Origin: Apibacter sp. B3706 | Lineage (GTDB): Bacteria > Bacteroidota > Bacteroidia > Flavobacteriales > Weeksellaceae | Assembly: GCF_011082725.1 (NCBI RefSeq) | Contig: NZ_CP049715.1 | Span: 1,116,001 to 1,180,000 of the forward strand | Length of the DNA: 64,000 bases | Reading direction: 5' to 3' | In this document: positions 3,963 through 27,393 of the stretch, piece by piece | How positions within the stretch are numbered: the first letter of the stretch is position 1 | Layout of the letters: the number at the start of each line of letters is the position of its first letter | Translations under genes and position numbers: made by a program | The notes under the pieces: generated by a model | What the model was told of the DNA's origin: nothing | Databases searched by the model: none | Seen by the model: only the letters and a program-made list of their open reading frames with translations

Positions 3963-4208
3963 TTAATTATTTAAATTTTTGTCTAAATACTTTTTACAAA
4001 GTGTTTTAAAATCTATCAAATTAGATTTTTTATACTTTTTGATATAATATTCATTATCATATGCGAAATTTTTTAAATAATCAAAATATATCTGTAATAA
4101 TTCCAATATTATATCTTTATTTTTATATAACCAATTAAATTTTTTTTCAGAAATAGTGCCTTTTTTATTTAAATAAGTAATTATTCTTATAAGCGTATTT
4201 TCGTCCAT
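3963..4208 (-). CDS. Small unknown protein beside the repressor
   Basis: An 81-residue, Lys/Tyr-rich, apparently cytoplasmic protein with no family I recognise. It is transcribed leftward, in the same direction as the repressor gene that ends 146 bases upstream of its start, so it may be expressed in the lysogenic state together with the repressor. A GTCTAAATA sequence resembling the repressor half-site falls inside it at 3981-3989, possibly by chance. It could be an immunity, superinfection or accessory product; nothing in the sequence decides this. Confidence 0.5.
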   Translation of the reverse strand: MDENTLIRIITYLNKKGTISEKKFNWLYKNKDIILELLQIYFDYLKNFAYDNEYYIKKYKKSNLIDFKTLCKKYLDKNLNN

Positions 4209-4354
4209 TATTTATAGTAGTGAAAAGTTTTTTTGTTTTTTTGTAAAACTATAAATGTACGAATATACAGGATAAATGAAACGATATTTATATATAGCTG
4301 CCTAAAATTTATCTTTTTAAAATATATATTTTAATATAATTTATTCTTTATAAA

Positions 4355-4741
4355 CTAAGTATTAATTTTTTTTTCCAATTGTTTTATCTCTTGTTTGAGC
4401 TCTTCAATTTCTTCTCTATAAAATTCATTTAGTTCAATTAATATTTTTATTTTTTTTTCGGCTACATTAAGTTTTTTTTGCATCCTTATAGCATCTATAA
4501 GTGCAATGTCAGTTAAATCATCATTACTCTTTAACATTTCGCCGTCACCGGTTAAAAGCCATACAGGATTTATATCTAAACAATTGTCTAATATTTTATT
4601 AAGTACGCCTTCCCCTAAATCAGATTCTCTTTTTAATTGAGTACCTATATACCCGTTAGACAGATTATTTTTTTTCTCAAAAGAACTATTATTAAGTCCT
4701 TTATAATCAATGTATTGCTTGATTCTATGTATAGCTTTCAT
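4355..4741 (-). CDS. Element repressor (CI-like, HTH plus C-terminal coiled coil)
   Basis: A 128-residue protein. Residues 1-70 follow the pattern of Bacteroidota phage repressors: RIKQYI, then FEKKNNLSNGYIG (recognition-helix region), ending in the diagnostic INPVWLLTGDGEML motif. The C-terminal third (IELNEFYREEIEELKQEIKQLEKK) is a heptad-rich coiled coil, probably for oligomerisation. It is the only leftward regulator next to the rightward early operon, the arrangement of Mu c versus ner/A. The 81-base divergent gap contains an inverted repeat that is the likely operator. Repressor role is inferred from motif and position. Confidence 0.85.
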   Translation of the reverse strand: MKAIHRIKQYIDYKGLNNSSFEKKNNLSNGYIGTQLKRESDLGEGVLNKILDNCLDINPVWLLTGDGEMLKSNDDLTDIALIDAIRMQKKLNVAEKKIKILIELNEFYREEIEELKQEIKQLEKKINT

Positions 4742-4759
4742 AATAAATATTAAAATATT

Positions 4760-4784
4760 GTCTAAATATTTTGTTTTATTAGAC
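4760..4784. promoter_or_regulatory. Putative repressor operator (GTCTAA-N13-TTAGAC)
   Basis: Inverted repeat GTCTAA (4760-4765) and TTAGAC (4779-4784) between the divergent repressor and early genes. It overlaps the TTG of the -33 element of the early promoter, so bound repressor would block it. Half-site copies recur at 5073-5078 and 5108-5116. Confidence 0.6.
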
Positions 4785-4822: not shown

Positions 4823-5059
4823 ATGGAAAGAAGTAAGAATGTTAACAAAAACGCACAAAAAATACAATATGGAGATTTTGTAACCCTATCGGAAATGTTA
4901 GGTTGTACCAGTCAGGCAGCACGTATGAGGTATGAAAGAGGTGATTTAAATGCAAAAGAAGCTCTGGATATTATTATAGAAACTCGAAAAAAAATTATCC
5001 AAGAATACCATTTAAAAAATCCCACGAAAAAAAATTCAACTATTTTAAAAACAAATTAA
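4823..5059 (+). CDS. Small DNA-binding early regulator (Ner-position protein)
   Basis: A 78-residue basic protein with a helix-turn-helix-like centre (FVTLSEMLGCTSQAARMRYERGD). It is the first gene of the rightward early operon, directly after the early promoter and across from the repressor, the position of Mu ner, which limits early transcription. No Ner family identity can be proven by eye. Bacteroidota elements commonly carry a short protein with this AARMR-type motif upstream of the transposase. Confidence 0.6.
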   Translation: MERSKNVNKNAQKIQYGDFVTLSEMLGCTSQAARMRYERGDLNAKEALDIIIETRKKIIQEYHLKNPTKKNSTILKTN

Positions 5060-5072
5060 TGAATCAAAAATA

Positions 5073-5155: not shown

Positions 5156-7156
5156 ATGGAAGTTTATGAATTCTATAATAATAAATGGGGTGTTTTATCC
5201 AATTGGTTATTTGGAAAATCCGGTTTACTCAAACAAAGTACCTATAAACAATTAACACAAAGAAACCATTTAATTCTCTTACGAAAAGGAGGAAATGGAA
5301 GAAAGGCGTTAGTTGAATTTGACAGTATGAGATCCGACATTAAAAAATCGGTATTAGAGTTAGCCGGAGATCCTTATACTATAGGAAAAAAATACACTTT
5401 CTTAGAATGCATAGAAAAAGACGAAAAAGCGGAAAAATTTTTCAATGAATACCTATTGGAAAATGGTCAATCCTTGCCTGAAAACAGAAAAAAAGAATAT
5501 ACCTGCAATGCATCCCTGCTAAATACTATTTCAAAAATTATAAATCATACCCTGATGCGCCGTCGTGTCTTGGGAGGCAATCAAAAAAAAATGTGGGAAA
5601 ATATTGCAGAAATTGTAAAAAATCTCGATAAAAACAAATGGCCGCATTCTTTACCGGAAAATTACCGCCGTTTACGAGAACGATTAAAAGTATATCAAAC
5701 TCATGGATATCAAATTTTAATACATAAAAACTATTGCCATACCCACAGTCAAAAACTAACAGAAAATTCCAAACTCTGGCTGTTAGCCAAATGGAGTAAT
5801 CAAGTCCAAAGAACAGTCTGCATATCACAATTACATCAAGAATATAACCTTTATGCCCTGAGCGAAGGATTAAAAACAGTTGAAGAAAAAACCATATACA
5901 ATTTTATATATGACGAAGAAATAATGCCTTTGTGGTACGGACACAAATTTGGAGAACTTAAATACAAAGAAAAATATAATTACCAACAAAAAACTAAATT
6001 ACCAACACTACGAGATTCACTCTGGTATAGCGACGGAACCAAATTAAACTTCTTTTACCTAACTGAGGAGGGCAAAATGGAAACCATTTCTGTTTATGAA
6101 GTTATGGATGCATACAGCGAGGTTTTGCTTGGATATCATATCAGTAAAGAAGAAAACTATCAAGCCCAATATTCAGCATATCGGATGGCCATACAATTTT
6201 CAGGACATAAACCCTATCAAATAGGTTTTGATAACCAAGGAGGACATAAAAAACTTGAAACGGAGAATTTTTTAAATAAAATAGCCCATTTGTCCATAAA
6301 AACCGAGCCATACAACGGAAAATCCAAAACCATTGAAAATGCATTTTATCGTCTGCAAAATCAACATCTTGCTCGTTATTGGTTCTTTACAGGACAAAAT
6401 ATCCAAGCTAAAAAAGAAATTTCTAAAGCTAATATGGAATTCATCTTAGCTAATAAAAGCAATCTCCCCTCCCTTACCGAAATAAAAGAGATTTATAAAA
6501 AAATACGAGAAGAATGGAATCTTTCTCCCCATCCGTTCAGCGGTAAATCCCGACTTCAAACGTATTTAGACAGCGAAAATGAAAAAGCGCCTAAGATTGA
6601 ATTATGGGACATGGTCAATTTCTTTTGGGTTGAAAGAAAACAGCCTGTAAAATGGTCTTCCTTCGGATTTTCTTTTAAGGAAAAAAAAGTAACCTACGAC
6701 TATTTTGTTTATCGAGAAGATGGTATGCCCGATTTAGATTTTCACGAAAAAGCCGTGAATCAATCATTTTTTGTCAAATATGATCCGGAAGATATGAGCA
6801 TGATTTATTTATATCAGAAAGATCCACAAGGACAATTACGATTTGTAAGAGAAGCCGTTTTAAAAACCGAAATACACCGAGGAAAACAAGAACAAGAACA
6901 ATTCGAAGCAGAATGGATTAAAAAGGTCAAAAAAGAAAATAAGAATAAGCGTATCCAACGAAGAAATGAAATGGATGAGATCCTTAAAAGTTTTAACATG
7001 GATGCGGAATCCTATGGATTGGTTAAACCCAATCTGAAAGGGTTGGAAAATTCCAAAATTGGAAGAAAAAGCAAAAAAGTGATGCATGAAGATGTTGGAA
7101 GTTGGCAGAAAAAAGAAAGTTTACAAACCATAGAAGATATCAGAGAACTTTATTAA
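5156..7156 (+). CDS. muA: Mu-type DDE transposase (MuA family)
   Basis: A 666-residue transposase, close to the 663 residues of MuA. An N-terminal DNA-binding region precedes an RNase H-like core in which the acidic triad is visible: D293 in WYSDGTKL, D359 in IGFDNQGGH and E394 in KTIENAFYRL. These correspond in order and spacing to MuA D269, D336 and E392. A beta-barrel-like region and a Lys-rich tail (residues about 590-630) that could contact MuB or DNA follow. It would cut the element ends and join them to target DNA during integration and replicative transposition. It is directly followed by the MuB-like gene. No frameshift or missing catalytic residue is seen, so it looks active. Confidence 0.93.
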   Translation: MEVYEFYNNKWGVLSNWLFGKSGLLKQSTYKQLTQRNHLILLRKGGNGRKALVEFDSMRSDIKKSVLELAGDPYTIGKKYTFLECIEKDEKAEKFFNEYLLENGQSLPENRKKEYTCNASLLNTISKIINHTLMRRRVLGGNQKKMWENIAEIVKNLDKNKWPHSLPENYRRLRERLKVYQTHGYQILIHKNYCHTHSQKLTENSKLWLLAKWSNQVQRTVCISQLHQEYNLYALSEGLKTVEEKTIYNFIYDEEIMPLWYGHKFGELKYKEKYNYQQKTKLPTLRDSLWYSDGTKLNFFYLTEEGKMETISVYEVMDAYSEVLLGYHISKEENYQAQYSAYRMAIQFSGHKPYQIGFDNQGGHKKLETENFLNKIAHLSIKTEPYNGKSKTIENAFYRLQNQHLARYWFFTGQNIQAKKEISKANMEFILANKSNLPSLTEIKEIYKKIREEWNLSPHPFSGKSRLQTYLDSENEKAPKIELWDMVNFFWVERKQPVKWSSFGFSFKEKKVTYDYFVYREDGMPDLDFHEKAVNQSFFVKYDPEDMSMIYLYQKDPQGQLRFVREAVLKTEIHRGKQEQEQFEAEWIKKVKKENKNKRIQRRNEMDEILKSFNMDAESYGLVKPNLKGLENSKIGRKSKKVMHEDVGSWQKKESLQTIEDIRELY

Positions 7157-7201: not shown

Positions 7202-8056
7202 ATGGATAATGAAGAAAAAATACAAACGGTTCAAAAAATTCAAGACTATGTTAAACAACTGGGAAGTGAAACAGAAGCCGCCAATAACTTGAAACTAAGT
7301 ACGGATCAACTCACTCAGATTCTCAAAGGAGAAAAGCCGGTTATCAAAGACAACGTATGGAAATCTATCAATGCACAACTAAAAATTTACGAAAAAAGTT
7401 GGCAAGTAGTAGAAACAACGAATTTTAAAAATCTTCGTACCCTGTTTCAAGATGCAGTTGACGACTCACAAGTATTTGCCGTAATAAACTTTGCCGGTAG
7501 CGGTAAAACCGAGACAGCAAAGGCATTTGTTGAAAATACACCCAATACCTATCTCTTACAATGCAATGAATATTGGAATCGGAAATACTTTTTAGCTGAA
7601 TTATTAAACGTCTTGGGAAGAGATTCCGGTGGACTGACCGTTGCCGAGATGATGTCTGAAGCAGTACGGATTTTAAAAAAAAATAAAAAGCCCGGTATAA
7701 TCCTGGATGAAGCAGATAAATTAAGCGATCAAGTCCTTTACTTTTTCATATCCCTCTACAATCAATTAGAAGATCATTGCGCCATTATCTTAATGGCAAC
7801 CGATCATCTGGAAAAAAGAATCAAAAGAGGTTTAAAATTAAACAAAAAAGGATATAAAGAAATTTTCAGCCGAATTGGCAGGAGATTTATAGAATTTGGA
7901 GGAATCACGGCATCAGATGTCGCTTCCATTTGCATAGCAAACGGAATAGAAAATAAATGCCGTATTAAAGAAATATGGCAAGATAGTGAAGGAGATTTGC
8001 GCAGAGTGAAAAGAAAAATATATGCCTTAAAAAAAATAAACAAAGAAATTAAATGA
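7202..8056 (+). CDS. muB: MuB-type target-selection AAA ATPase
   Basis: A 284-residue ATPase with a short N-terminal HTH-like segment (about residues 12-60, ETEAANNLKLSTDQLTQIL), Walker A AGSGKT at 98-103 and Walker B LDEADK at 168-173, followed by a sensor-like IILMATDH. This is the MuB layout: DNA-binding N-terminus plus AAA+ domain that coats target DNA, activates the transposase and gives target immunity. It lies 45 bases after the transposase and overlaps the next ATPase gene by four bases, indicating one translationally coupled operon. Confidence 0.9.
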   Translation: MDNEEKIQTVQKIQDYVKQLGSETEAANNLKLSTDQLTQILKGEKPVIKDNVWKSINAQLKIYEKSWQVVETTNFKNLRTLFQDAVDDSQVFAVINFAGSGKTETAKAFVENTPNTYLLQCNEYWNRKYFLAELLNVLGRDSGGLTVAEMMSEAVRILKKNKKPGIILDEADKLSDQVLYFFISLYNQLEDHCAIILMATDHLEKRIKRGLKLNKKGYKEIFSRIGRRFIEFGGITASDVASICIANGIENKCRIKEIWQDSEGDLRRVKRKIYALKKINKEIK

Positions 8057-8667
8057 AACGAGCAATATCCATTCATGAAATTTATACCAAAAAAAGAAAA
8101 GTATTACCATTTGATGGAATATGGGAAGCACATATAGGTAAACCGGAATTAAAAGGCAGTTGGATTATTTGGGGAAATTCAGGAAACGGAAAAACCGGAT
8201 ATGCCATACAATTAGCCAAATATCTCTCAAAGTTTGGCAGAGTGGCTTATAACGGATTAGAAGAAGGAAACAGCGAATCTTTTGCAGAAGCCTGCAAAAG
8301 AAATAATATGGACAAATGCCGAGGAAGATTTGTACTGATTGAAGACAGCATCGAAGAATTAGACCATCGCTTAAACTTGCACAAATCGCCGGATATAATA
8401 TTCATTGACAGTTTACAATATTCAGGAATCAATTATACCTCGTATAAAGAATTGATAAAAAAATACTCAAACAAATTATTTATATGGATTTCACATGCCG
8501 AAGGTCGCAATCCGGAAGGACGAATTGCAAAAAAAGTACGATACGATGCCTTTGTTAAAATTTATGTTGAAGGCTATACAGCAAATGCCGTAAGTAGATA
8601 CGGAGGAAAAGAAAGTTATATAATTTGGCAAGAAGGTGCCGACCAATACAATCTAACCATTAGATGA
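8053..8667 (+). CDS. Second P-loop ATPase (RecA/KaiC-like), coupled to MuB
   Basis: A 204-residue protein with Walker A GNSGNGKT at 41-48 and a hydrophobic Walker B strand (DIIFIDS, 114-120), the order and spacing of a compact RecA-type fold. Its start overlaps the MuB stop (ATGA), so synthesis of the two is coupled. Classical Mu has no such second ATPase at this place. A role in replication, helicase loading or DNA handling during transposition is possible, but the sequence only shows that it binds nucleotide. Confidence 0.75.
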   Translation: MKRAISIHEIYTKKRKVLPFDGIWEAHIGKPELKGSWIIWGNSGNGKTGYAIQLAKYLSKFGRVAYNGLEEGNSESFAEACKRNNMDKCRGRFVLIEDSIEELDHRLNLHKSPDIIFIDSLQYSGINYTSYKELIKKYSNKLFIWISHAEGRNPEGRIAKKVRYDAFVKIYVEGYTANAVSRYGGKESYIIWQEGADQYNLTIR

Positions 8668-9846: not shown

Positions 9847-10542
9847 ATGTCCATACCAGATCTAAGCACAGTAACCGAAAAAGAGCTTTTAGAAGCTTTA
9901 AAAAAGAAAAAAAAAGAAAAAGAATCGGACCGGATAGCTTATAAAGAGTTAGTTGAAGAAACTATACCGGAAGTCATCCACCATCTTATTAAAACTTCCC
10001 AAGAACTTCGCTCTTCCAAAAAATTTACCTTTTCTGCCTTAAAAAAACTTATTCAATTAAAATATTCCATATACGGAGTAAAAGAAGAACAACAATCCCA
10101 TACTTTTACTACCGCAAACGGCGAATCTGTAACCATCGGCTATCACGTTACCGATAATTGGGATGACACGGTAAACTCAGGAATAGCTAAAATAAATGAA
10201 TACATAAGGTTCCTTGCCAAGAAAGAGGCCGACGCCCATACTATAACCATCATTAATCAACTATTAAAAAAAGATGCCAAAGGAAATTTAAAAAGTTCCC
10301 GTGTGCTTGAATTAATTTCATTAGCCGATAAGTTGGATCACGAAACTTTCACCGATGGAGTTCGTATCATACAACAAGCCTATAAGCCTACCCGTTCCAG
10401 CTTTTTCATAAAAGCTCATTACCTCGATAAATTAGGTCATAAAGTAACCATAGATCTCTCCATCGCCTCCGTGGATTTTCCTAAAGATTTTGACTTAACA
10501 TTTTTACTTCCTGAAAAACATAAACAAGATGAAAACACCTAA
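9847..10542 (+). CDS. DUF3164-like Mu early protein
   Basis: A 231-residue protein. The C-terminal half reads like the DUF3164 family found in the early region of Mu-type phages: LKKDAKGNLKSSRVLELISL, then a helical stretch and RSSFFIKAHY followed by a final strand with TIDLSIASV. A Lys-rich N-terminal segment (KKKKKEKESDR) could contact nucleic acid. The molecular role of the family is unknown. Its stop overlaps the start of the GemA-like gene by 14 bases, so the two are translated together, and this pairing is typical of Mu-like elements. Confidence 0.75.
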   Translation: MSIPDLSTVTEKELLEALKKKKKEKESDRIAYKELVEETIPEVIHHLIKTSQELRSSKKFTFSALKKLIQLKYSIYGVKEEQQSHTFTTANGESVTIGYHVTDNWDDTVNSGIAKINEYIRFLAKKEADAHTITIINQLLKKDAKGNLKSSRVLELISLADKLDHETFTDGVRIIQQAYKPTRSSFFIKAHYLDKLGHKVTIDLSIASVDFPKDFDLTFLLPEKHKQDENT

Positions 10543-10972
10543 AGTACATGACTATCAAATCAAGCAACTTTTCAGTTTATTCTCCGAAGATGTAAAAAAA
10601 GACCCTGCTCTGCGTCAACAGTTGATTTTTCATTTTACTCACGGGAGAGTAAGCAGTACCAAAGATCTTACCGATGAAGAAGCTAACAGGTTAATTGCTG
10701 CTCTCAAAGAAACATATACCCACTGGGGAAAGTTTGATAAAAATAATAAACAGCATTTAACTCTATTGCGTTTATGTTACGATTTAAATTGGACTATTTT
10801 TAATAAAAAACATAACCGTATAGTCGCCGATTTAAATACTCTGGGAAAATTTATAGCAAGTAAAAAATCACCCGTAAGAAAACCTTTATTAGAAATGTCA
10901 GTAAAAGAATGCAGTAAACTAATAACGGCCTTAGAAGGAATACTTAAATTCAAGTATAAAAAAATGGATTGA
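10529..10972 (+). CDS. gemA: GemA/gp16-like regulator (DUF1018)
   Basis: A 147-residue protein with the gp16 (DUF1018) pattern: an N-terminal IKQLFSLFSEDVKKD segment, then a short helix ending GRVSSTKDLTDEEANRLIAAL, the Ser-x-x-x-Leu-Thr helix seen in Mu GemA homologues, and a C-terminal helical extension. In Mu, GemA influences host gene expression and supercoiling early in the cycle. It is the last gene of the early operon, followed by a 213-base regulatory gap. Assignment rests on motif pattern and position. Confidence 0.75.
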   Translation: MKTPKVHDYQIKQLFSLFSEDVKKDPALRQQLIFHFTHGRVSSTKDLTDEEANRLIAALKETYTHWGKFDKNNKQHLTLLRLCYDLNWTIFNKKHNRIVADLNTLGKFIASKKSPVRKPLLEMSVKECSKLITALEGILKFKYKKMD

Positions 10973-11185: not shown

Positions 11186-11380
11186 ATGAGTACCAAAAAC
11201 TTACGAAATAATACAAAATTAAGATACAGAGCCATAAAAGAAGAATACCGTTTACAAGTTAAACGCAATAACGGTATGCCTCTTACTCAGATATACAGAC
11301 AATTTATTTATCCCAAGTTTTTCATATCCAGACAAACCTTATATACGATCATATTTACTCCGGATTCCGATTTAAACTAG
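11186..11380 (+). CDS. Short HTH-like protein at the Mu mor position
   Basis: A 64-residue very basic protein. The central and C-terminal part (PLTQIYRQFIYPKFFISRQTLYTIIF) fits a helix-turn-helix in which SRQTLYTII would be the recognition helix. It follows the GemA-like gene and has its own promoter, the place where Mu carries mor, the activator of the middle promoter. Its stop overlaps the stop of the leftward neighbour by four bases. It may switch on the lysis and tail genes; this is inference from place and composition. Confidence 0.55.
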   Translation: MSTKNLRNNTKLRYRAIKEEYRLQVKRNNGMPLTQIYRQFIYPKFFISRQTLYTIIFTPDSDLN

Positions 11381-11826
11381 CAATTGGATATACTCATCGT
11401 ATAGAATACATGAAGTTCTTGAATACCATCCTCTCTTAGGACAGATTTCCAAGAAGATCTTTTCAAGCTCCCGCAAAAACTTTTCGGTCTCCATTCGTGC
11501 AATTTTTCATGTATTTTTTTTAAATAATTCCAACCTTCCCAAGCATTTGCTTGCACATCCTCAGAATTACTGTTTTGACTTGAAAATTTTAAAGTAGCAA
11601 CCGTTATGTCAAACGTTATAAAACCTTGTTGTTTGTGATGGGAAGTCATTGACTTGCTTTTTCCATTATCTTCGAAAGTAGCTTCTTTAATAGAAATTAA
11701 TGCACAAGGCCAAGATAAAGGGTAAGGGATTTCCTCATAATTTAATTGTCCCCAATCTTCTCCAACATATGAAAATTCCTTAATTTCAGCTATTCTCGCC
11801 TGTAGAGATTCTAAAATTTCGATCAT
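11377..11826 (-). CDS. Tail-terminator/tail-completion-like protein (Mu gp37-like), leftward
   Basis: A 149-residue protein starting MIEILESLQARIAEIKEFSYV, continuing with a PYPLSWPCALISI strand and ending in a strand-rich FYTMSISNC, the pattern of small phage tail-completion proteins that cap the tube (the gp37/gpU-like group) and which usually sit just before the sheath gene. Here it lies 1.6 kb upstream of the sheath and in the opposite direction to every other structural gene. It is intact. A contractile tail needs a terminator even without a head, which fits its retention. Family assignment is moderate. Confidence 0.5.
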   Translation of the reverse strand: MIEILESLQARIAEIKEFSYVGEDWGQLNYEEIPYPLSWPCALISIKEATFEDNGKSKSMTSHHKQQGFITFDITVATLKFSSQNSNSEDVQANAWEGWNYLKKIHEKLHEWRPKSFCGSLKRSSWKSVLREDGIQELHVFYTMSISNC

Positions 11827-12401
11827 TAATTATAAATTTGGTTAATAAATATCTTACATCAACATAAAAAGTATTATTTAACAAACTTTCTCAAATACTT
11901 TTCAGTTGAAAATTTCATCAATAATGAATTGCTTATAAAAACTTATATTCTTAAAAAAGGTTACTCTTTACTAAAATCACTAATTAATAAGAAACCGATA
12001 CATCGCTGAAAAATAATTCGGCTGTAGATCATAATTACCCGCATCTAAGAGTAACCTGTACTATGGTTTTAAACAAATATCTAAGAAAATAAACGCAACT
12101 TGTATTAGTATGTAAAGAAACTTGACACTTCTGTGCAAGTACTTTACAAGATTGTCAAGAAGCTTTACAACTTTCTTTACTTGCAATCTTTTATGATTCA
12201 ATTTTGCCGTATAAAATTTCGAACGATTAAGGATTAGTTACGGTAAAAGAATTATCCGTCATTAAAAAAAATCATTTGAAAGCATACAAAGAAAATAAAC
12301 CAAATAAAAAAATATTGTCTGCTAAGCAAAAGGTTAACCAACGCGTTAAAACGAAATTCACGAATGAATCGCAGGCAGACAGTATTTAATAAAATAGCAA
12401 T
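11827..12401. other. Structured non-coding region between two divergent late genes
   Basis: About 575 bases without a gene. It holds several inverted repeats: 11959-11968 with 12047-12056 (GGTTACTCTT / AAGAGTAACC), 12112-12124 with 12136-12147 (GTAAAG..ACTTG / CAAGTACTTTAC), 12149-12154 with 12184-12189 (AGATTG / CAATCT), and the long repeat at 12311-12386. CTTTAC occurs at 12142, 12163 and 12175. It separates the leftward tail-terminator-like gene from the lysis/tail operon, so it is the natural place for late promoters and activator sites. It may also be the scar of lost head or middle genes. Confidence 0.6.
12311..12386. repeat. Long inverted repeat just upstream of the lysis/tail operon
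   Basis: AATATTGTCTGC (12311-12322) faces GCAGACAGTATT (12375-12386) with one mismatch in 12 and a 52-base spacer. Inside lie the palindromes GGTTAACC (12332-12339) and AACGCGTT (12340-12347). The outer arm shares AATATTGTCT with the repressor operator region at 4754-4763. It ends 15 bases before the amidase ATG, so it could be an operator pair or a leader hairpin controlling the late operon. Confidence 0.6.
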
Positions 12402-12833
12402 ATGAACCTTAAAAAATCTATACGAACCATAAAATATTTGGTTATACACTGTGCCGCGACTCCCGAAGGAAGGAACGATAAGGCCAAAGACATAGATCGT
12501 TGGCATAAAGAAAGAGGATGGGCCGGAATCGGATACAATTACGTCATAGATTTAGATGGTACTGTTGAACCGGGAAGGGATGTAGACAGGATACCTGCCC
12601 AAGTTGCCGGACATAACAAAAATGCCATAGGTATTTGCTATATAGGAGGAGCTGACAAAAACTTGAAAGCTAAAGACACACGAAATCCGGCCCAAAAAAA
12701 AAGTCTGATTGAATTACTTAAAGAATTAAGAAAATTATATCCAACTGCTCAAATACTGGGACATAGAGATTTTGCATCTGCCAATACCACTTGTCCAAGT
12801 TTTGATGCCATAGAAGAATATAAAAATATTTAA
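12402..12833 (+). CDS. N-acetylmuramoyl-L-alanine amidase (endolysin)
   Basis: A 143-residue amidase_2 (T7 lysozyme-type) enzyme that cleaves the bond between MurNAc and L-Ala of peptidoglycan. Zinc ligands are visible: His in YLVIHCAAT, His in ILGHRDF and Cys in TTCPSFD; the catalytic Tyr lies in IGYNYVID. It has no signal peptide, so it needs a holin or other release route, as phage endolysins do. It is followed four bases later by a spanin-like gene, forming a lysis pair that would release particles by bursting the producing cell. Confidence 0.9.
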   Translation: MNLKKSIRTIKYLVIHCAATPEGRNDKAKDIDRWHKERGWAGIGYNYVIDLDGTVEPGRDVDRIPAQVAGHNKNAIGICYIGGADKNLKAKDTRNPAQKKSLIELLKELRKLYPTAQILGHRDFASANTTCPSFDAIEEYKNI

Positions 12834-18265: not shown

Positions 18266-18934
18266 ATGAAAATTAATAATAAAAATTTATTATTGGCCGG
18301 TTTATTAGGTTCAAAGGTGGCCAAAAAATTACCACGGTTTGAAGCTCTTGAAAATGAATTAGCTAAACATGTGTTGCCACCAAAACCTTTTTTACCTCTT
18401 AAAAATAAGTCAAGATTTACTTATCAGGAAGTAGATTGGAATGATAAATTCATGGTAATGCCGGAACAAATTCCGGAGGATAAACAATTTTTTCCCGTAA
18501 AAATCAGAAATATCAATGACAGCCAATGGTATTTATTGCCTTATGAACCTATGATTACAATCTCAGGTAAAAATAATATCATCAAGCGAGAAGTAGCTAA
18601 AAAAGGAAATGATAAAAATTTGTTCGGTACTATAAAAGAATATTGGAGTCAAGACGATTACGAAATTACGATAACCGGCGCCTTATATGGAGCTTTAGAA
18701 ACCGGATCTGTTGATGATTGTTATCCTAAAGAAGATTTTAGAGCGCTTAAAGACTTTATTCTCAATCCGCAAGGAATTGAAATTGATTGTCAACCGCTGA
18801 AATTATTAGACATTACCAGAATAGTAGTTGAAGATTTTACATTTCCGTTCACCAAAGGTGAAAATGTACAGGCATATGAAATTAAAGCAGTGAGTGATTC
18901 TACCTACGATTTGTTTAAACTTTTAAATGACTAA
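18266..18934 (+). CDS. DUF6046-like tail/baseplate protein (Mu gp43 position)
   Basis: A 222-residue protein with the pattern of the Bacteroidota phage family DUF6046: YEPMITISGKNNIIKREV, a central KEYWSQDDYEITITGALYG strand block, and a C-terminal end with DITRIVVEDFTF and IKAVSDSTYDLFKLL. Its position between tape measure and hub matches Mu N (gp43), which connects the tail tip to the tape measure. It is 11 bases after the tape measure and six before the hub gene. The biochemical role is inferred from position. Confidence 0.7.
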   Translation: MKINNKNLLLAGLLGSKVAKKLPRFEALENELAKHVLPPKPFLPLKNKSRFTYQEVDWNDKFMVMPEQIPEDKQFFPVKIRNINDSQWYLLPYEPMITISGKNNIIKREVAKKGNDKNLFGTIKEYWSQDDYEITITGALYGALETGSVDDCYPKEDFRALKDFILNPQGIEIDCQPLKLLDITRIVVEDFTFPFTKGENVQAYEIKAVSDSTYDLFKLLND

Positions 18935-18939: not shown

Positions 18940-19911
18940 ATGTATAAGTTGTCATGGGACATAGAATTCAGCCACGAATCTAAAAAATTTAATTTGCCTG
19001 TAATTGCAGAATGTGAAATAAATAAATCTGTTGATTCTTTAGTAGCCACCGCTGTTATCATCTTGCCTGAATACATAGCCAATCGTCCTTTGAATCTCGA
19101 AAAAAAGATTCCGATAGGTTCTCAAGTAAAAATTAAATTAGGATACGACGATGTTTTAATAAATGAGTTTAGCGGATACGTGCAAAGAATAACCAATGTA
19201 GACAGCTGTTTAAAAATTTTTTGTGAGGATGATATGTATGTATTTAGAAAACCGGTAAAAAATGAGGAATTAAAGCCTACTTCTATTGACAAAATTGCTC
19301 AAACCCTGTTAAATCAAGTTATGCCCGAATATACTTTGAACTGTGACTATGAACTTTACTATGAAAAATTCGTCATCTTTCGAACAACGGCTTATGATGT
19401 ATTGAAAAAATTACAGGAAGAATCCGCAGGAAATATATATTTAGATACCGAAAATAAAGTACTCCATATTCATCCTCCTTATGTTCAAAAAAAAGGCGAA
19501 GTCAAATATTCAATGCAACATAATATAGAAAAAGCCTCTTTAGAATACAAAAAAGCGTCAGACAAAAAAATTCAAATTACTGTTGAAACAACAGATAAAA
19601 ACGGTAAAGTGCTTACCGAGACTTACGGCAATGAAGATGGAGAGAAAAAAACTGTTAAAATATCAAGCATAGCGCTGGCTTCACTTAAAATACGAGCAAA
19701 ATATGAATATACCAAACATGCATACGACGGATACGAAGGTACTTTTGATACCTGGCTTCTGCCCTATGTTGAGCCTAGTTATTCAGCAAAAATAACAGAT
19801 GAAGATTATCCGGATAAAAACAGCAAGTATTACGTAGTAAGCGTTAAAACCAGTTTTAGTTCTTCCGGAGGAAAAAGAACCATTACACCGGGTATACTTT
19901 TATCAGTTTAA
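18940..19911 (+). CDS. Baseplate hub protein (gpD/Mu gp44-like)
   Basis: A 323-residue protein with the fold signature of contractile-tail hubs: an N-terminal barrel region with IPIGSQVKIKLGYDDVLINEFSGYV shown here by its core VKIKLGYDD, and a second region with TTAYDVLKKLQEESAGNIYLD, the conserved Leu-Gln-Glu helix of the late-control D/VgrG family. It should form the trimeric hub that holds the spike under the tube. It precedes the spike gene by three bases, as in Mu P and gp45. Confidence 0.8.
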   Translation: MYKLSWDIEFSHESKKFNLPVIAECEINKSVDSLVATAVIILPEYIANRPLNLEKKIPIGSQVKIKLGYDDVLINEFSGYVQRITNVDSCLKIFCEDDMYVFRKPVKNEELKPTSIDKIAQTLLNQVMPEYTLNCDYELYYEKFVIFRTTAYDVLKKLQEESAGNIYLDTENKVLHIHPPYVQKKGEVKYSMQHNIEKASLEYKKASDKKIQITVETTDKNGKVLTETYGNEDGEKKTVKISSIALASLKIRAKYEYTKHAYDGYEGTFDTWLLPYVEPSYSAKITDEDYPDKNSKYYVVSVKTSFSSSGGKRTITPGILLSV

Positions 19912-19914: not shown

Positions 19915-20418
19915 ATGGAAAAGGGAGAAAAAATAAAACGATTAATAAAACAACTGGTTGGTGCAAATCCTAATTTCCCAATTATAGGGACTGTTACGGA
20001 ATTACAAAAAGAAACCTGTTCATTGGCATTGGATGAAGATTTGATTATTACCGATGTGAGGTTAAAGGTTAGTTATGGTGGTTCGGAAAACTATATGATT
20101 CAGTACCCTAAAATAGGTTCCAGAGTTGTGGCTTTGAGTATCAGCGGCGAGCTTTCTGATTTGATGATAATCAAGGTAGATGAAATTGAAAAAATAGAAA
20201 TCAACCAAAACGGATTGGTCTTGTTGCTGGACAGTACTGATGGAAAAGTTTGTATAAAAAATAACTCTCGCAGTTTAATAGACCTGTTCCAGCTGCTGAC
20301 TGATACTCTCAAGGGATTGAAAGTATTTACATCAACAGGAGCCAGCGGAACTCCTTTACCGGATACTCAAAAAAAATTAATTGATTTTGAAACGGGATTT
20401 AAATCACTTTTAAAATAG
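19915..20418 (+). CDS. Baseplate spike protein (gpV/Mu gp45-like)
   Basis: A 167-residue protein. The N-terminal half has an OB-fold pattern (IIGTVTELQKETCSLAL, then KIGSRVVALSISGELSDLMIIKVDEIEKIE), typical of the central spike that first touches the target membrane. The C-terminal part is too short for a long beta-helix needle, so this is a blunt, compact spike. It lies between the hub and the gp46-like wedge gene, the order in Mu. No enzymatic domain is attached. Confidence 0.7.
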   Translation: MEKGEKIKRLIKQLVGANPNFPIIGTVTELQKETCSLALDEDLIITDVRLKVSYGGSENYMIQYPKIGSRVVALSISGELSDLMIIKVDEIEKIEINQNGLVLLLDSTDGKVCIKNNSRSLIDLFQLLTDTLKGLKVFTSTGASGTPLPDTQKKLIDFETGFKSLLK

Positions 20419-20426: not shown

Positions 20427-20636
20427 ATGGCACTAAATAAAGGAAGTTTACAATCAGGCATAAAAAAATTGTTAACTGACATGCATACCAGAGAAGATTC
20501 ATCCATAGAAGAATTTTCAAAGAGATTAAGTGAATTGATAGACAGCTTTGTAAAAACAGCTACTATAAAATATGACGGCGGTTTATCTGCTCCCAACGGA
20601 CCGGTAAACGGAACTTTTAAAGGAAAATTGGAATGA
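20427..20636 (+). CDS. Small conserved tail-module protein, unknown
   Basis: A 69-residue protein with an N-terminal helical part (GSLQSGIKKLLTDM, then FSKRLSELIDSFVKTA) and a short Gly/Pro-rich tail (GGLSAPNGPVNGTF). Similar short proteins with a helix followed by a Gly-rich end sit beside the spike gene in Bacteroidota contractile tails. Its stop overlaps the next gene's start by four bases. It could be a structural accessory of the baseplate; no more can be said. Confidence 0.65.
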   Translation: MALNKGSLQSGIKKLLTDMHTREDSSIEEFSKRLSELIDSFVKTATIKYDGGLSAPNGPVNGTFKGKLE

Positions 20637-20920
20637 GAGACATATTAATTACAAATGAAGGTGAGCTTAAAATTGAGAACGGAGATTTTGTAGTTGAAAA
20701 TTCAACTTTACAACATCAAGCGTTATTACTTTTAGCCAATCCGGGAGAATTCAAAGAAGATCCGATGCTGGGTGTGGGAATTGAAAGTTATATTTTGGAT
20801 TCCTGTATGAACGAATGCGAATTTGAAGCACGTAAGCAATTTATATCGGATGGAATGAAAGTTAAAAATTTGATATTTAAGTCCAAAGATAATATGATTA
20901 TTGATGCAGAATACGGATAA
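20633..20920 (+). CDS. Baseplate wedge protein (gp25/Mu gp46-like)
   Basis: A 95-residue protein with the gp25-like pattern: ILITNEGELKIENGDFVVE, a helix QHQALLLLANPGEFKEDP with the conserved Pro-Gly-Glu region, and GVGIESYILDS. Members of this family are short wedge components that link the sheath to the baseplate; they share a lysozyme-like name but no activity. It overlaps its upstream neighbour and lies in the Mu order before gp47. Confidence 0.75.
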   Translation: MRDILITNEGELKIENGDFVVENSTLQHQALLLLANPGEFKEDPMLGVGIESYILDSCMNECEFEARKQFISDGMKVKNLIFKSKDNMIIDAEYG

Positions 20921-20921
20921 T

Positions 20922-21254
20922 ATGAAAGAATTATTTACAACCTATGTAGGAGAATTTTTAACCATGCTAACAGCCGTTTTTGGAGGGTGGTTTTATAAAA
21001 GAAAGAAAGAGTCCGTTACTAATCATAATTCATCCATAGATCATGGGGCAAGAGCTGTTAATATTTATAAAGAAGCATTGGAAGATCTGGGGATCTGTTA
21101 TGAAAAAAAATATAAAAACATTATAACATTATACGAAAGTCGTGAACAACTTTTACGGAATGAAATAATGGAATTGAAAAATAAGATAAAAATATTGCGA
21201 AAAGAAAATATTTCCTTAAAAAGGAGGATTGAAGACTTGAAAAAACAACAGTAA
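20922..21254 (+). CDS. Membrane-anchored coiled-coil protein inside the baseplate operon
   Basis: A 110-residue protein read from ATG 20922, directly after the preceding stop; a longer start at 20901 would overlap the wedge gene. One transmembrane segment (FLTMLTAVFGGWFY, about residues 12-25) is followed by basic residues and a long Glu/Lys coiled coil to the end. This topology suits an i-spanin-like or holin-associated protein, or a membrane tether for assembly, rather than a particle part. It is unusual between gp46- and gp47-like genes. Role unknown. Confidence 0.6.
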   Translation: MKELFTTYVGEFLTMLTAVFGGWFYKRKKESVTNHNSSIDHGARAVNIYKEALEDLGICYEKKYKNIITLYESREQLLRNEIMELKNKIKILRKENISLKRRIEDLKKQQ

Positions 21255-21255
21255 T

Positions 21256-21567
21256 ATGAAAATAATTATTCGTAATAATCAATCCCTATTGGATGTAGCC
21301 GTCCAATATCGAGGAACAGCTGAAGCCGCCTTTGAGATAGCTCTGGCTAATAATTTAAGCATTACAGAAGATCTGAAAACAGGGCAAGAACTGATCATTC
21401 CCAATACACGATATTATAATAAAATAGTTTCTGAGTATTACGAAGGAAAAGGATTTTTACCCGCTACCTCCATATCCGATGATTTTATAAGCAATTTGGT
21501 AGATCTGGGAATTGGAGAGATGATTATAAATATAAACTTTAAGCCTAAAGCATTAAAAAATAGTTAA
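21256..21567 (+). CDS. LysM-domain tail protein
   Basis: A 103-residue protein whose first half is a LysM domain (NQSLLDVAVQYRGTAEAAFEIALANNLS, key parts LLDVAVQYRG and ANNLSITEDLKTGQELIIPN). LysM binds peptidoglycan or, in tails, links hub and tube (as gp53-like and P2 gpX proteins do). The second half is unrelated to LysM. It starts one base after the coiled-coil gene and ends three bases before the gp47-like gene. Confidence 0.8.
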   Translation: MKIIIRNNQSLLDVAVQYRGTAEAAFEIALANNLSITEDLKTGQELIIPNTRYYNKIVSEYYEGKGFLPATSISDDFISNLVDLGIGEMIININFKPKALKNS

Positions 21568-21570: not shown

Positions 21571-22449
21571 ATGGCAAGGAAACTTAAGGACATAACAGAA
21601 GAAATTTTAAACGAAAAAGGAAAATATCGTGAATTGGATCCGTTGGATTCTACCTCAAAAACCTCAATATGGAGATTATTTGTATATGTAATAGCCTATA
21701 CCATATTTAATTTAGAATTACTGTTTGACCGACATAGAGAAGAAGTAGACAATTTAATTGCCGAATTGAAACCACATACGGCTAAATGGTACAGAAATAA
21801 GGCTCTGGCTTTTCAATATGGATTTGATTTGTATCCGGATTCGGATGTATTTAATAATGAGGGGTATACTGATGATCAGATAGAAGCAAGTAAAGTAGTA
21901 AAATATTCTGCCATAACTGAGGATAGCAACCGAAGCAGACTTATTGTAAAAGTAGCCGGTGAAAAAAATGGTGAACTCGTACCTTTAACGACTGGAGAAG
22001 TAAATTCTTTTACAGCATATATGGAAGAAATTAAAGATGCAGGTGTGCCGTTAACCATCATCAATTATCTGCCTGATTTATTGTATTTAAATATTACAAT
22101 AAAAATTGATCCATTGGTATTGGATGAAAATGGAAACGCCATAGCTCCAATCAATGGAAATATAAGACCGGTAGATACAACAATACGTCAGTATTTACGC
22201 GAATTACCTTTTAATGGTGAATTAATGTTATCAAAATTGGTAGACAAACTGCAGCTGACGCCGGGAGTTAAAGACGTAAATATCTATGAAGCTTCTTCTT
22301 CATGGATCGATCCTCAAACTAAAAATTACGGAAATCCTATTGCTATTACAATGAGTAAAATACCTAATTCAGGATATTTTACTACTATTAAAAACATTGG
22401 GAATAATAAGGTAGAAAATCTAGTTAAAATTGATTATAATGTGGTTTAA
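21571..22449 (+). CDS. Baseplate wedge protein (gpJ/Mu gp47-like)
   Basis: A 292-residue protein beginning ARKLKDITEEILNEKGKY and containing TGEVNSFTAYMEEIKDAGVPLTI, whose core GEVNSFTAYM matches the helix of baseplate J family members that precedes the conserved strand. The later PINGNIRPVDTTIRQYLRELPFNGEL stretch (core IRQYLRELPFNG) is also typical of J-like wedge proteins. It would form, with the gp46- and gp48-like products, the wedges round the hub. Its stop overlaps the next start by eleven bases. Confidence 0.75.
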   Translation: MARKLKDITEEILNEKGKYRELDPLDSTSKTSIWRLFVYVIAYTIFNLELLFDRHREEVDNLIAELKPHTAKWYRNKALAFQYGFDLYPDSDVFNNEGYTDDQIEASKVVKYSAITEDSNRSRLIVKVAGEKNGELVPLTTGEVNSFTAYMEEIKDAGVPLTIINYLPDLLYLNITIKIDPLVLDENGNAIAPINGNIRPVDTTIRQYLRELPFNGELMLSKLVDKLQLTPGVKDVNIYEASSSWIDPQTKNYGNPIAITMSKIPNSGYFTTIKNIGNNKVENLVKIDYNVV

Positions 22450-22927
22450 CATAAATATAAAAAAACTGGCAGTCTTACATTTACCTACGGCACTTAGAAA
22501 AGCTCGAGAAATCAAATTCTTATTTAGTCTGGTAAAGCCGCTATCCCGTATACATTTTGATTGGTTACAAGTAAGAAATGAAAATATATATAAGTTAAAT
22601 CACAATTCACAAGTATGCTACCTGCGCAAGACTCTAAATGATCGATTTGACCCTGCTGAAAGAAGGATAATTATTATGGATTATCAAATATATAAACAAA
22701 ACTATATATACACTCAAGGAGAAAATAAGCCTTTTAAGTTAGGAAATAGCTCTTCAACAGATTGCGGCCCCATGTATTTAAGACCGGCATACGACTATGA
22801 TCTAAGTACCCTAAATTTTATAGTTAAGGTTCCCAATGAGCTGTTAGTCGATAATATATATAAAATAAAAGCACTTATTGAATACTATAAATTAGCTAAT
22901 AAAAAATACAAAATTGAAAAATTATAA
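22439..22927 (+). CDS. Baseplate wedge/tail protein (Mu gp48 position)
   Basis: About 162 residues from ATG 22439; a TTG start at 22430 is possible but less likely. It has no clear motif beyond a mixed alpha/beta composition (LHLPTALRKAREIKF near the start, RRIIIMDYQIYKQ in the middle). It follows the gp47-like gene and precedes the repeat protein, the place of Mu gp48 or P2 gpI, which complete the wedge. Assignment is by position; the gene is clearly real from its tight overlap with its neighbour. Confidence 0.6.
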   Translation: MWFNINIKKLAVLHLPTALRKAREIKFLFSLVKPLSRIHFDWLQVRNENIYKLNHNSQVCYLRKTLNDRFDPAERRIIIMDYQIYKQNYIYTQGENKPFKLGNSSSTDCGPMYLRPAYDYDLSTLNFIVKVPNELLVDNIYKIKALIEYYKLANKKYKIEKL

Positions 22928-22945: not shown

Positions 22946-23947
22946 ATGGATTACATTATATTTAATCAAACCGGTGGTTTTCCTTTGCAAACAGACACCT
23001 TAGACTTTATGCAACAAATGTACAGACCATTTCTTAACGATATGGGACGTATGGCCGGAAGAAGAGCAATAATTTGCGGATGTGAAGAACATGGCTCTAA
23101 GATAACCAAAGGACTCATTCAAATTGACAATGAGCTGTTTATTTTAGCTGAAGGAACTAAACAACATTCCATCACCATAGTTGAGGAAAAAAAAGAGTAT
23201 GAATTTGAAAATGGCGAAAAAAAAGTAACCATTGTAACACGATATGCATCTTTTGGCACGGGAGCTGTATCTTATTCCTGGAATGAATTTAAAAGAGTAC
23301 CGGATCTTAGCTTGATTCCTGAAGAAATAAAACGTTTAGATTGGAGAATAGACGGAAGAGTACCTTATGACGTTTTTAATCAATACCTAAATGAAAGCAA
23401 AAGTAATCGAGCTCATCTACAAAAACAAATTGATGGACGTGTGACAAATAAAGAATTTGGTGAGTTTTATAACAAAAATAAAGAGGTTCAAGCGTATCTT
23501 CAAGAACAAATTAATGGGCGTGTGACAAATAAAGAATTTGGTGAGTACTACAATAAAAATGAAAAAGTTCAAACCTATCTTCAAAAACAAATAGATGCTC
23601 GAATTACTAATGATAATTTTGCTAAACATTATAAAGAAAATTCGGAAGCTCATAATTTTCTTCAAAAACAAATAGATGCTCGAGTTACTAATGAAAATTT
23701 TGCTAAACATAACAAAGATAATTCAGATGCTCATAAATCATTTCAAGCACAACTTAATGTTAGGTTAACTCATACCGAACATGCAAAATTTTATCATGAA
23801 AATATGGATGCTCATCAATATCTTCAAGCACAAATTGATGGTAGGGTAACTCATACCGAACATGCAAAATTTTATCATGAAAATCTTTCTGCTCATACCT
23901 ATTTACAGCAACAAATTGACAGACTAAATAAAAAAGTTTTTAGATAA
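22946..23947 (+). CDS. Baseplate-to-fibre adaptor with seven 27-residue repeats
   Basis: A 333-residue protein. Residues 1-130 form a unique globular part (YIIFNQTGGFPLQTDTLDFM at the start, abbreviated motif GGFPLQTDTLDFMQ) found at the start of Bacteroidota fibre-adaptor proteins. Residues 134-322 are seven tandem 27-residue repeats with core QIDGRVTNxEFAKxYxENxxAHxYLQ, then a short basic end. The repeats would form a helical or coiled shaft. It is the last gene of the compact baseplate operon and probably links wedge to fibre. Confidence 0.7.
   Translation: MDYIIFNQTGGFPLQTDTLDFMQQMYRPFLNDMGRMAGRRAIICGCEEHGSKITKGLIQIDNELFILAEGTKQHSITIVEEKKEYEFENGEKKVTIVTRYASFGTGAVSYSWNEFKRVPDLSLIPEEIKRLDWRIDGRVPYDVFNQYLNESKSNRAHLQKQIDGRVTNKEFGEFYNKNKEVQAYLQEQINGRVTNKEFGEYYNKNEKVQTYLQKQIDARITNDNFAKHYKENSEAHNFLQKQIDARVTNENFAKHNKDNSDAHKSFQAQLNVRLTHTEHAKFYHENMDAHQYLQAQIDGRVTHTEHAKFYHENLSAHTYLQQQIDRLNKKVFR
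23345..23911 (+). repeat. Seven tandem 81-base (27-residue) repeats
   Basis: Units 2 and 3, 4 and 5, and 6 and 7 are each other's closest relatives (NKEFGE pair, NxNFAKH pair, HTEHAKFYHEN pair); unit 1 is most diverged. The array explains the artefactual leftward open frame over 23417-23710. Confidence 0.85.
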
Positions 23948-24285: not shown

Positions 24286-27200
24286 ATGACAACAAAAGAT
24301 ACATTAAAACAGTGGTTTAAAAATGGCAAGAAACCTGACGAATCTCAATTCTCGGAATGGTTGGAAAGCTATTGGCATAAGGATGAAAAAATACCAATCG
24401 AAATCATTGAAAATATTAATAATATATTAGCTAATAAATCAGATACTTCTCTAGTCAAAAGCTTGATAAATCAATTGGAGGGAAAAGTTGATAAAGAAGT
24501 TATAATGTCTTTAGAAAAATACATAAAGGAGATCATTGATGATAATCTTAACAAAGCTTCGGATAAGACCTATTCTATAGATAAAATACAACAAATTGTT
24601 GAAATTATTAATAATAAACTTGAAACAAAATCTGATGCCTCTTCCCTAGGTATTTTATTTGAACAACTTGATAATAAGGTTGATAAAAATGTTGTTCAAA
24701 ATTTGACCAATCATTTATATGGTTTAATTGATGACAGTCAAACTTCTGCTTCCGATAAAACGTATTCCATAGACAAGATACAAGAAATTATTAGCAAGTA
24801 TGTTAAAGATGCGGTTATCGATATCAAATATAATGATCAAACCAACAAATTATTGGTTCAATATCAAAACGGAGAATCCCAAGAGCTAATTATAAAGGAT
24901 AATTTTTTATCGGAAATTACTTATGATTCATCCCATAAAGAAATTAAGTTTATTCTTGAAAGCGGAAAAACCTTTACTACAAATATCTCTGATTTACAAG
25001 ACATTTACAGGACGACTGAAAACGGGGGAATTGAAATAGATAATGAAAATCAGATATCAATAAAAAAGGGTGGTATAAACGAATCCATGCTTGACGAGGA
25101 TGTTAAAGATAAAATCAATCATACCGATACGTTACAACAAATTACTGAAAAGGGCAATTCAACCACTAAAGATTTACTTATAAATTCTGCTTCTCTGGGT
25201 GCTGATACCAATGGTAATATCAAATTTGGTACAGATGCTTTAAACAGCAAAAACGAATCGACGCGTAACAACCTGGCTATCGGAAGTCAAGCATTATCGA
25301 AAAATGTTACCTGTCCGGATATCTTAGCAATCGGAAACCATGCATTGAAGGAGTTTGACGGTATGGGTTCTGAATCCGATTGGATCACAAGCATTGGGCA
25401 TAACTCCGCAACAAAATTAAGAAACGGCGCCAACTCTTTATTTGCGGGACACGGTGCCGGACAAAATTTAGAATCTTGTAACTTCGATACATTTATGGGC
25501 GCTTTAACAGGGGCGAATGCTAAAAAATCTGTCAGCAATGTTCTGATTGGACAAGCAGCGGCCTACAACGCTCAACAATTGACAGATGATACTGCTATTG
25601 GTCATCTTGCATTGGGAAAATATAAAGGAGTAGATTATAAATCATCTACAGATAGTAAACCTATGACTTCGGGAGGTAATATTTCAATTGGTAAATATGC
25701 TTCATATAAAACTTTATATGGTCGCGAAAATACATTTATCGGCCACCAATGTGGATACGATTTTTCAAATTACGGTGAATATAACACCTATTTGGGTTCC
25801 GGTATAACCAAAGGTTACAATCAAGTATATGGAAATACCAGTGTTGTTATTGGTGCATATGCAAGTTTGCCGATGAGGTTTGAATTAACTAATAAATTGG
25901 TGATCGATGCCAAAAGACCGGAAGATCCTAAGAGTGATCCTTTAGTGTACGGAGATTTTAAAGAGAAATGGTTTAAAATAAACGGGAAACACAGACTTAA
26001 TTATGAGTATACGCCCAATGCGGATTTAAACCGAGATTTTAAACCAAGCCATATGCTTGTTTCTGATGATGAAGGTAATGTGGGAGTAACTAAATATATA
26101 GATATAGCTAAGGCTACTTATTCACATGAATATGAAATTAATGATTCAGAGTTTTCAAAGATATGTTCTTTTTCTTTTAATCAATTAAACGGCCGGGCAT
26201 TTTTAAATCTTTTATTAGATGGAATTGATGCTAATTTGAATAATAGCATTTCAACGGCATATATACGTTCAAGTGTGATAAATAATTCCAGGGTAGTTAA
26301 AGGTCTTCAAGAAAACAAAACGGAGAATGTCAACTATAAGCTTTATTATAAAAAAGAATTTGAAAAAATAGATGATTATATTTTTCAACCCATAAGCCAA
26401 GATAATGGTACAAATTTTAATTTAATATCTGAAAAATATAAAGATTTATATATTTTAAAGCCAAAAACCGGATATAACAGATATTATATACCGATGGATA
26501 AAATTACAGATTTGGATGATGAAAATCGATATTATACTGCTTCAATGGTTGTAATACCAAATGAACTGGATACCCAAGATACTGTATTTTTCAATACTAT
26601 CATATTAGGTGGAGTAAATGGCAATAATTGGAATCATAGAATTGGATGGAAAGATTTTAAAAAAATCAATAATTCCGATGGTAGTGTTTTTCTATATAGT
26701 ACATTCTTAGTTGAAAGATCTTCCGGAAGACAATTTACAGAATTTAGTTTTGTATGTGAAAATAACTCGACCCAAAATCAGACAAAAATAACTAATTTAA
26801 AGGTTGAAGAGGGAGAAAAGTATACTCCGTATATTGAAACTTTTAATGATTATTCTAATGAATCAAATGGCGTAACTTTCCCTATTAAAGGTTTGCCCGG
26901 TTCTTCCCTTATCTGTATTGATGATAAATATGTTCATGTTGCTTATGCTGATGATAGTAACGGAAATGGATTCTCTATTACGCCAGAAGGTAAAAATTTT
27001 GTAGGAGTATATGTCGATCGTATTTCTGAAACTAATGAAAACCCTAAATTATATACATGGAGCTCAGTTTCAGATCTTCTTGCTTCCAATGAAGATGTCA
27101 TAAATATATCTTGCGGTGAATTCGAAGGTAAAAAGCATTATTTACATGTTGCATATGCCGACAATCATAAAGGAGATGGATTTTCCACTAATAATACTAA

Positions 27201-27393
27201 AAAATTTATAGGACTTCTCTTGGATACAAATGAAGTAAATCAACAATTTTCTCTATTTCTTAAATCTGAAGATGCAGATATGAAAGTTCAAGTCAGCGTT
27301 TTATCTTTGGATGAGAAAATGGGTAAAATAGATTTTATCCAAGATGAAAAAATAGTTTACGATAAATTTTCAGGTGAATTTTCAGTTTTATAA
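24286..27393 (+). CDS. Tail fibre / receptor-binding protein with YadA-like head repeats
   Basis: A 1035-residue protein. Residues 1-30 (TLKQWFKNGKKPDESQFSEW) are the attachment start typical of Bacteroidota fibres. Residues about 50-170 hold two copies of a helical unit (NKASDKTYSIDKIQ and QTSASDKTYSIDKIQ). Residues about 290-520 show many IG-x-x-A repeats (NLAIGSQALS, ILAIGNHALK, NISIGKYASY, NTFIGHQCGY) like trimeric adhesin heads. A linker NKLVIDAKRP/YGDFKEKWFKING follows, then a large C-terminal region with two copies of a YVHVAYAD...GFS module. It should decide target specificity. Terminator directly downstream. Confidence 0.85.
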   Translation: MTTKDTLKQWFKNGKKPDESQFSEWLESYWHKDEKIPIEIIENINNILANKSDTSLVKSLINQLEGKVDKEVIMSLEKYIKEIIDDNLNKASDKTYSIDKIQQIVEIINNKLETKSDASSLGILFEQLDNKVDKNVVQNLTNHLYGLIDDSQTSASDKTYSIDKIQEIISKYVKDAVIDIKYNDQTNKLLVQYQNGESQELIIKDNFLSEITYDSSHKEIKFILESGKTFTTNISDLQDIYRTTENGGIEIDNENQISIKKGGINESMLDEDVKDKINHTDTLQQITEKGNSTTKDLLINSASLGADTNGNIKFGTDALNSKNESTRNNLAIGSQALSKNVTCPDILAIGNHALKEFDGMGSESDWITSIGHNSATKLRNGANSLFAGHGAGQNLESCNFDTFMGALTGANAKKSVSNVLIGQAAAYNAQQLTDDTAIGHLALGKYKGVDYKSSTDSKPMTSGGNISIGKYASYKTLYGRENTFIGHQCGYDFSNYGEYNTYLGSGITKGYNQVYGNTSVVIGAYASLPMRFELTNKLVIDAKRPEDPKSDPLVYGDFKEKWFKINGKHRLNYEYTPNADLNRDFKPSHMLVSDDEGNVGVTKYIDIAKATYSHEYEINDSEFSKICSFSFNQLNGRAFLNLLLDGIDANLNNSISTAYIRSSVINNSRVVKGLQENKTENVNYKLYYKKEFEKIDDYIFQPISQDNGTNFNLISEKYKDLYILKPKTGYNRYYIPMDKITDLDDENRYYTASMVVIPNELDTQDTVFFNTIILGGVNGNNWNHRIGWKDFKKINNSDGSVFLYSTFLVERSSGRQFTEFSFVCENNSTQNQTKITNLKVEEGEKYTPYIETFNDYSNESNGVTFPIKGLPGSSLICIDDKYVHVAYADDSNGNGFSITPEGKNFVGVYVDRISETNENPKLYTWSSVSDLLASNEDVINISCGEFEGKKHYLHVAYADNHKGDGFSTNNTKKFIGLLLDTNEVNQQFSLFLKSEDADMKVQVSVLSLDEKMGKIDFIQDEKIVYDKFSGEFSVL

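Follow-up and report, generated by a model that had tools for sequence, protein, structure and literature searches.

Can a Mu-like phage shed its head and persist as a contractile tail that still travels on its own transposase? The question is raised by a locus in the complete 2.30 Mb genome of Apibacter sp. B3706, a bacterium of the bee gut, within a stretch of 64,000 nucleotides (positions 1116001-1180000, hereafter the window) in which a Mu-like element occupies approximately 3.3-27.44 kb. Tailocins are regarded as phage remnants frozen at one place, and their origin and spread constitute an open question. A first-pass annotation, made from the letters of the window, had described the parts of this element (from transposase to fibre) as present in intact frames, had found no head gene among them, and had raised the possibility of a self-transposing tailocin. 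PHROG and Pfam matches bore out the named parts and the intact frames (repressor, MuA, MuB, lysis, tail and fibre genes), and the same searches detected no head function in any window protein. We consider, with a probability of roughly 60%, that this is a Mu-like transposable element which lost its head/packaging block, kept a Mu-type transposition module to carry it and would now act as a contractile tailocin. Measured against the Mu-like transposable phages, the element possesses the MuA DDE transposase and MuB and lacks the head/packaging module that defines a phage; measured against the R-type tailocins, it possesses a complete contractile tail (sheath, tube, tape measure, baseplate, spike, fibres and terminator) with no head, portal or terminase genes, and is thus a tailocin by gene content, departing with its intact MuA/MuB from the absence of mobility genes and the fixed site that are usual (though not strictly defining) in this group.

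The scar of the head block and the retained terminator

The closest relative of the window element is a Mu-like phage of A. mensalis R-53146, split over two contigs (contig 3, L040, MuA 86% identical; contig 16, L037, sheath 75% identical), which has the same tail gene order and, unlike the window element, a full head block. On contig 16 approximately 8 kb lie between a small conserved gene (11186-11380 in the window, plus strand, recognised beside the terminator gene by comparison with relatives) and the amidase gene, as against 0.5 kb in the window counterpart. The block encodes the neck protein/gpG, Mu_F, Portal_Mu, Gp36 and the large and small terminases on the minus strand, and the protease (Peptidase_S78) followed by the capsid on the plus strand. 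Since this sister phage is full-headed, the head genes of the window element must have been lost. The missing block had been placed by the first-pass annotation between the lysis genes and the sheath; in Bacteroidota relatives it lies upstream of the amidase, which moves the gap to 11827-12345. This interval is the scar of the lost block. Homology to the sister phage persists there in three patches: where the terminator gene begins, between the start codons of the small terminase (TerS) and of the protease, and in the leader of the amidase gene. The middle patch is a divergent late promoter region (about 12061-12230, best-conserved core 12167-12223), which was thus retained while at least two excisions, one to its left and one to its right, took away the head genes.

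The alternative that has to be weighed here is a recently defective Mu-like prophage, i.e. one that lost its head block through chance deletion, has otherwise not yet decayed and has no weapon function. At least two separate excisions that spared the promoter region fit such an accident poorly, as does the fact that no stretch of head-gene coding sequence can be recognised in the window while the neighbouring genes align at 73-85%. The same holds for the retention of exactly one gene of the leftward head operon, the terminator, and for the independent headless elements long conserved in relatives (see below).

This sole survivor (11377-11826, minus strand; DUF1834/Mu gp37-like, phrog_6911) is a predicted tail terminator. 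Its AlphaFold2 model, built from 50 homologues (pLDDT 84), matched the phage Mu terminator in a Foldseek search of the PDB (9khy, E 6.5e-7), and also lambda gpU, T5 p142, the monocin cap, the diffocin collar and the R-pyocin collar (6u5j). Head or neck genes adjoin the terminator gene in 76 of 80 viral contigs that carry one; of the remaining four, one is the window element and the others have terminator and sheath back to back. All headless loci that were examined closely and have a recognisable terminator show this gene pointing away from the rightward late operon, with a short gap between the two. A particle lacking a head requires the terminator as its cap but can do without a neck, the gene for which is missing from the window.

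Terminators normally bind a neck, and this, together with the retained transposition genes and the two terminases that a phrog_2 search returned from the same genome, could point to a tail-bearing satellite whose DNA or tails are joined to heads that a co-resident helper phage supplies. Both terminases, however, belong to siphophage-like prophages unrelated to a Mu-type head, and no homologue of a Mu-type terminase or capsid was found elsewhere in the genome, so that no trace was seen of the second, co-transposing head block which the first-pass annotation had named as a possible refutation. With the neck gene also missing, we regard a satellite as very improbable. The two prophages (G000:C1 832-872 kb and 990-1028 kb; L282-L285) carry near-identical fibre cassettes.

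Headless relatives and the selection acting on them

Our survey covered 320 genomes of the family, 68 of which hold a relative of the sheath, and 77 loci were examined. A head block is present in 56 of them and missing from 21; among these 21, nine also carry MuA and 12 gave no match to it in a search that covered some 14 kb on the upstream side of the sheath and, in part of the loci, the downstream side too. For G113 and G280 (both headless with MuA) the open reading frames were listed singly and leave no room for a head; the headless status of G247, G254 and G257 comes from sequence search alone. Between sheath and Rz-like gene, 34 of the 56 headed loci have a small additional gene (L037:12582-12842 and relatives), which none of the 21 headless loci has and which may be head-associated.

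In a maximum-likelihood tree of the sheath the headless loci with MuA arose at least three times: the window element is sister to the headed A. mensalis phage, G280 is sister to another headed phage, and a third group forms a clade of seven species (support 100/100). As the combination of MuA/MuB, a terminator and a complete tail with no head arose repeatedly, we argue that the 'transposable tailocin' is a recurring architecture and not a one-off wreck. We hold at even odds the broader proposal that transposable tailocins are a distinct and recurrent class of mobile elements in the family, in which the head is dropped, MuA/MuB remain under selection and the genes of a killing particle are spread or amplified by transposition; immobile tailocins might represent a later stage of this course.

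The elements of the seven-species clade are 78-91% identical. Three of them (G113, G208 and G228) share one site, which indicates vertical inheritance, and the other four have other flanks, all different; where homology stops, their ends carry shared inverted repeats (TTTTTCCAAATGCC-like on the left, GGCATTTGG-like on the right). A headless element was thus kept intact while occupying at least five sites. No clean empty site was found for this clade, since the two sequences that border one insertion do not lie together in the other genomes; it is the differing flanks and the shared ends that suggest mobility. The MuA of this clade is a variant in its second catalytic region: the subfamily (L198, L203, L209 and others) has ECES/EAES in place of DN in the region of the second acidic residue. 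As headed relatives (L042, L150) have the same variant, it gives no sign of decay after head loss.

The ratios of non-synonymous to synonymous change (dN/dS) in this clade, in which all measured change postdates head loss, are 0.04 for MuA, 0.02-0.05 for MuB, 0.02-0.12 for the tube, 0.04-0.09 for the hub, 0.05-0.16 for the sheath and 0.02-0.06 for the lysin; most tail genes range from about 0.02 to 0.2, the tape measure and fibres being looser. Judging by these ratios, the headless MuA-bearing relatives are under purifying selection after head loss. Between the window element and its A. mensalis counterpart, dN/dS is 0.06 for MuA and mostly 0.04-0.14 across transposase and tail genes, with 0.2-0.3 for the repressor, the Rz-like gene and the tape measure; on the window branch, change is in significant excess in the terminator alone and in none of the tail structural genes. 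In sum, the earlier interpretation stands as regards a head truly lost (given the full-headed sister phage), with the terminator kept and headless MuA/MuB-bearing relatives under purifying selection, and fails as regards the position of the gap.

Immobile headless clusters arose separately too. Eight loci (L112, L118, L129, L237, L238, L241, L242 and L245) form a headless clade with no MuA nearby and with terminator and sheath back to back, and are likely undescribed tailocins; near a tRNA-Asp gene in a genome of a different family of the same order, L045 (G033 contig 14, 2081-19713) holds a Mu-type tail cluster that has a repressor and a terminator and lacks both head and transposase. The generalisation that tailocins usually keep to one site and lack mobility genes holds for these headless clusters without MuA and not for the window element. 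One might therefore see in the latter a domesticated, immobile tailocin whose transposase is merely a regulator or a relic, a view to which the eight related loci and the vertical inheritance of G113, G208 and G228 at one site lend some weight. The dN/dS of MuA (0.04-0.06) and the at least five different sites of the seven-species clade make it improbable.

Several points weigh against a transposable tailocin in the window itself. Ordinary prophage erosion can also give clean-looking gene loss, and the dN/dS against A. mensalis spans time before the loss of the head as well. The terminator evolves faster on the window branch (25 against 12 unique changes, chi2 4.6), which could reflect either freedom from the neck or early decay. 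Any inverted repeats or target duplication at the ends of the window element are indistinguishable from AT-rich chance in AT-rich flanks, and the element is single-copy in its own genome. It is furthermore known from one strain, the 100% identical IMG/VR match being probably the same genome. Accelerated terminator change, a single copy and a single strain are also what a defective prophage would show; set beside the scar and the conserved headless relatives, they leave that explanation rather unlikely in our judgement.

If the element is indeed a transposable tailocin, the repressor would keep it silent, and upon induction MuA/MuB and the ATPase would replicate or move it within the cell, raising the dosage of the tail genes. 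From the retained divergent late promoter, transcription would then run rightward through the lysis and tail genes and leftward through the terminator gene. The products would assemble into contractile tails that are capped and free of DNA, leave the cell through amidase/Rz lysis and pick their victims by their fibres. Induction, particle production, killing and transposition of the window copy are all inferred steps. Retention of MuA/MuB may serve either a higher gene dosage on induction or movement within the genome. Since the element cannot package itself, it would have to pass between cells by vertical descent, by recombination of DNA set free on lysis or as a passenger of other mobile DNA.

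Borders and gene content of the element

The element is flanked by two glycosyltransferase genes, one ending at 3267 and the other beginning at 27487. On A. mensalis contig 9 the same two flanks are joined by 349 bp, i.e. the site is empty there, which supplies the occupied/empty comparison that the first-pass annotation had proposed. Homology to the A. mensalis flanks stops at about 3273 and is back by about 27443-27461, so that the element measures about 24 kb and its formerly given start at 3963 is too late. Both borders are approximate and rest on this break: the left end region spans 3274-3960, and a terminator hairpin with the right end spans 27394-27443. The MuA gene of the A. mensalis sister phage lies at a different locus from the window element, and the right end of that phage is missing because of contig breaks. 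Near the left end of the window element, at 3654-3689, stand three tandem 12-bp repeats (AGTTGGGTATAC-like); in the A. mensalis element (L040, about 5890-5930) and in headless elements of another genus, a similar place holds 12-bp repeats in threes with a different sequence (e.g. GGATGGACACTT). All of these are perhaps transposase or repressor sites. PADLOC gave no result.

The early region opens with the HTH repressor (4355-4741, minus strand; phrog_4, E 8.6e-4), a homologue of which is present in the A. mensalis element. All further genes named here are on the plus strand. A small early gene of a Mu-like family in Ner-like position (4823-5059) is 85% identical in the A. mensalis element, and is followed by the MuA-type DDE transposase (5156-7156; phrog_310, E 1.7e-68), whose D293, D359 and E394, named by the first-pass annotation, align to the catalytic residues of related phages. 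A Pfam DDE_2 search of the whole genome gave no match anywhere and is uninformative, as the controls gave none either. The MuB-type ATPase (7202-8056; phrog_296, E 2.3e-47), a second AAA ATPase (8053-8667; phrog_6891, E 7e-69; 92% identical in A. mensalis), a DUF3164 protein (9847-10542; phrog_846, PF11363) and a GemA-like protein (10529-10972; weak PF06252, 36-56% to relatives) complete this region.

The rightward late operon begins with the amidase endolysin (12402-12833; phrog_822, E 4e-58) and an Rz/spanin-like gene (12838-13350; 47% to the A. mensalis gene in the same position), followed by the tail sheath (13425-14624; phrog_907; PF10758, DUF2586, E 1.6e-69). The tail tube (14632-15045; phrog_4579) also drew the PHROG label 'major head' (phrog_9206), which we reject, as its 80% identical A. 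mensalis orthologue adjoins a separate capsid gene. There follow a tail assembly chaperone-like gene (15065-15370; phrog_19076 and position) and the tape measure gene (15540-18254; phrog_9959, PF20155), whose product of 904 aa, as compared to 627 aa in A. mensalis, implies a longer tail. The baseplate set comprises a gp43-like gene (18266-18934; phrog_5233), the hub (18940-19911; phrog_4930, E 1e-66), a spike-like gene in gp45 position (19915-20418; 79% to A. mensalis), four small baseplate/tail open reading frames (20427-21567, among which 20901-21254 resembles a coiled-coil/holin-like gene of relatives), a gp47-like wedge (21571-22449; phrog_38413) and a gp48-like gene recognised by comparison with relatives (22430-22927). 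A fibre/adapter protein with an N-terminus conserved in relatives (22946-23947; 81-bp tandem repeats at 23415-23919) precedes the last tail fibre (24286-27393, 1035 aa; phrog_6002), which shares its N-terminus with the fibres of relatives and for which the phrog_6002 label 'head'/'virion structural' was likewise rejected.

Known systems and implications for the family

Among Bacteroidota phages, Hankyphage p00 (BK010646), BKO1-TP4 (PQ571270) and Porphyromonas phage015a (BK068096) have MuA proteins 36-38% identical to that of the window and share its order of MuA, MuB and ATPase, followed by a leftward terminator-neck-portal-terminase operon and a rightward protease-capsid-amidase-tail operon; the final two leftward genes in the phage015a record are labelled tail completion and neck. 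All three have complete heads, and the window element has none. The R-pyocin R2 and diffocin collars (6u5j, 8v3t) resemble the retained terminator in fold, come from other phage ancestors and are not accompanied by a transposase. Mu-derived tailocins are already known, R-syringacin of Pseudomonas syringae being an R-type tailocin derived from phage Mu (PMC12090994). R-type tailocins of Mu ancestry likewise combine a Mu-type contractile tail with lysis genes and no head, and have been described as chromosomal fixtures, in contrast to the intact and conserved transposition module of the window element. To our knowledge, the known members of that group lack MuA/MuB. No description of a tailocin with a MuA-type transposase was found in the open-licence literature, and a transposition module retained under selection appears to be new.

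Taken together, the family harbours three kinds of locus, namely Mu-like phages with heads, headless elements whose transposition genes are intact and headless clusters that have no such genes. Several independent transitions link them, and the path from phage to weapon becomes directly testable here. For tailocins that current tools call defective prophages, the loci suggest a simple rule, by which the genes flanking the late promoter go and the tail terminator stays. They also raise the possibility that a bacteriocin (i.e. a phage-tail killing device) may exist as a mobile element in its own right.

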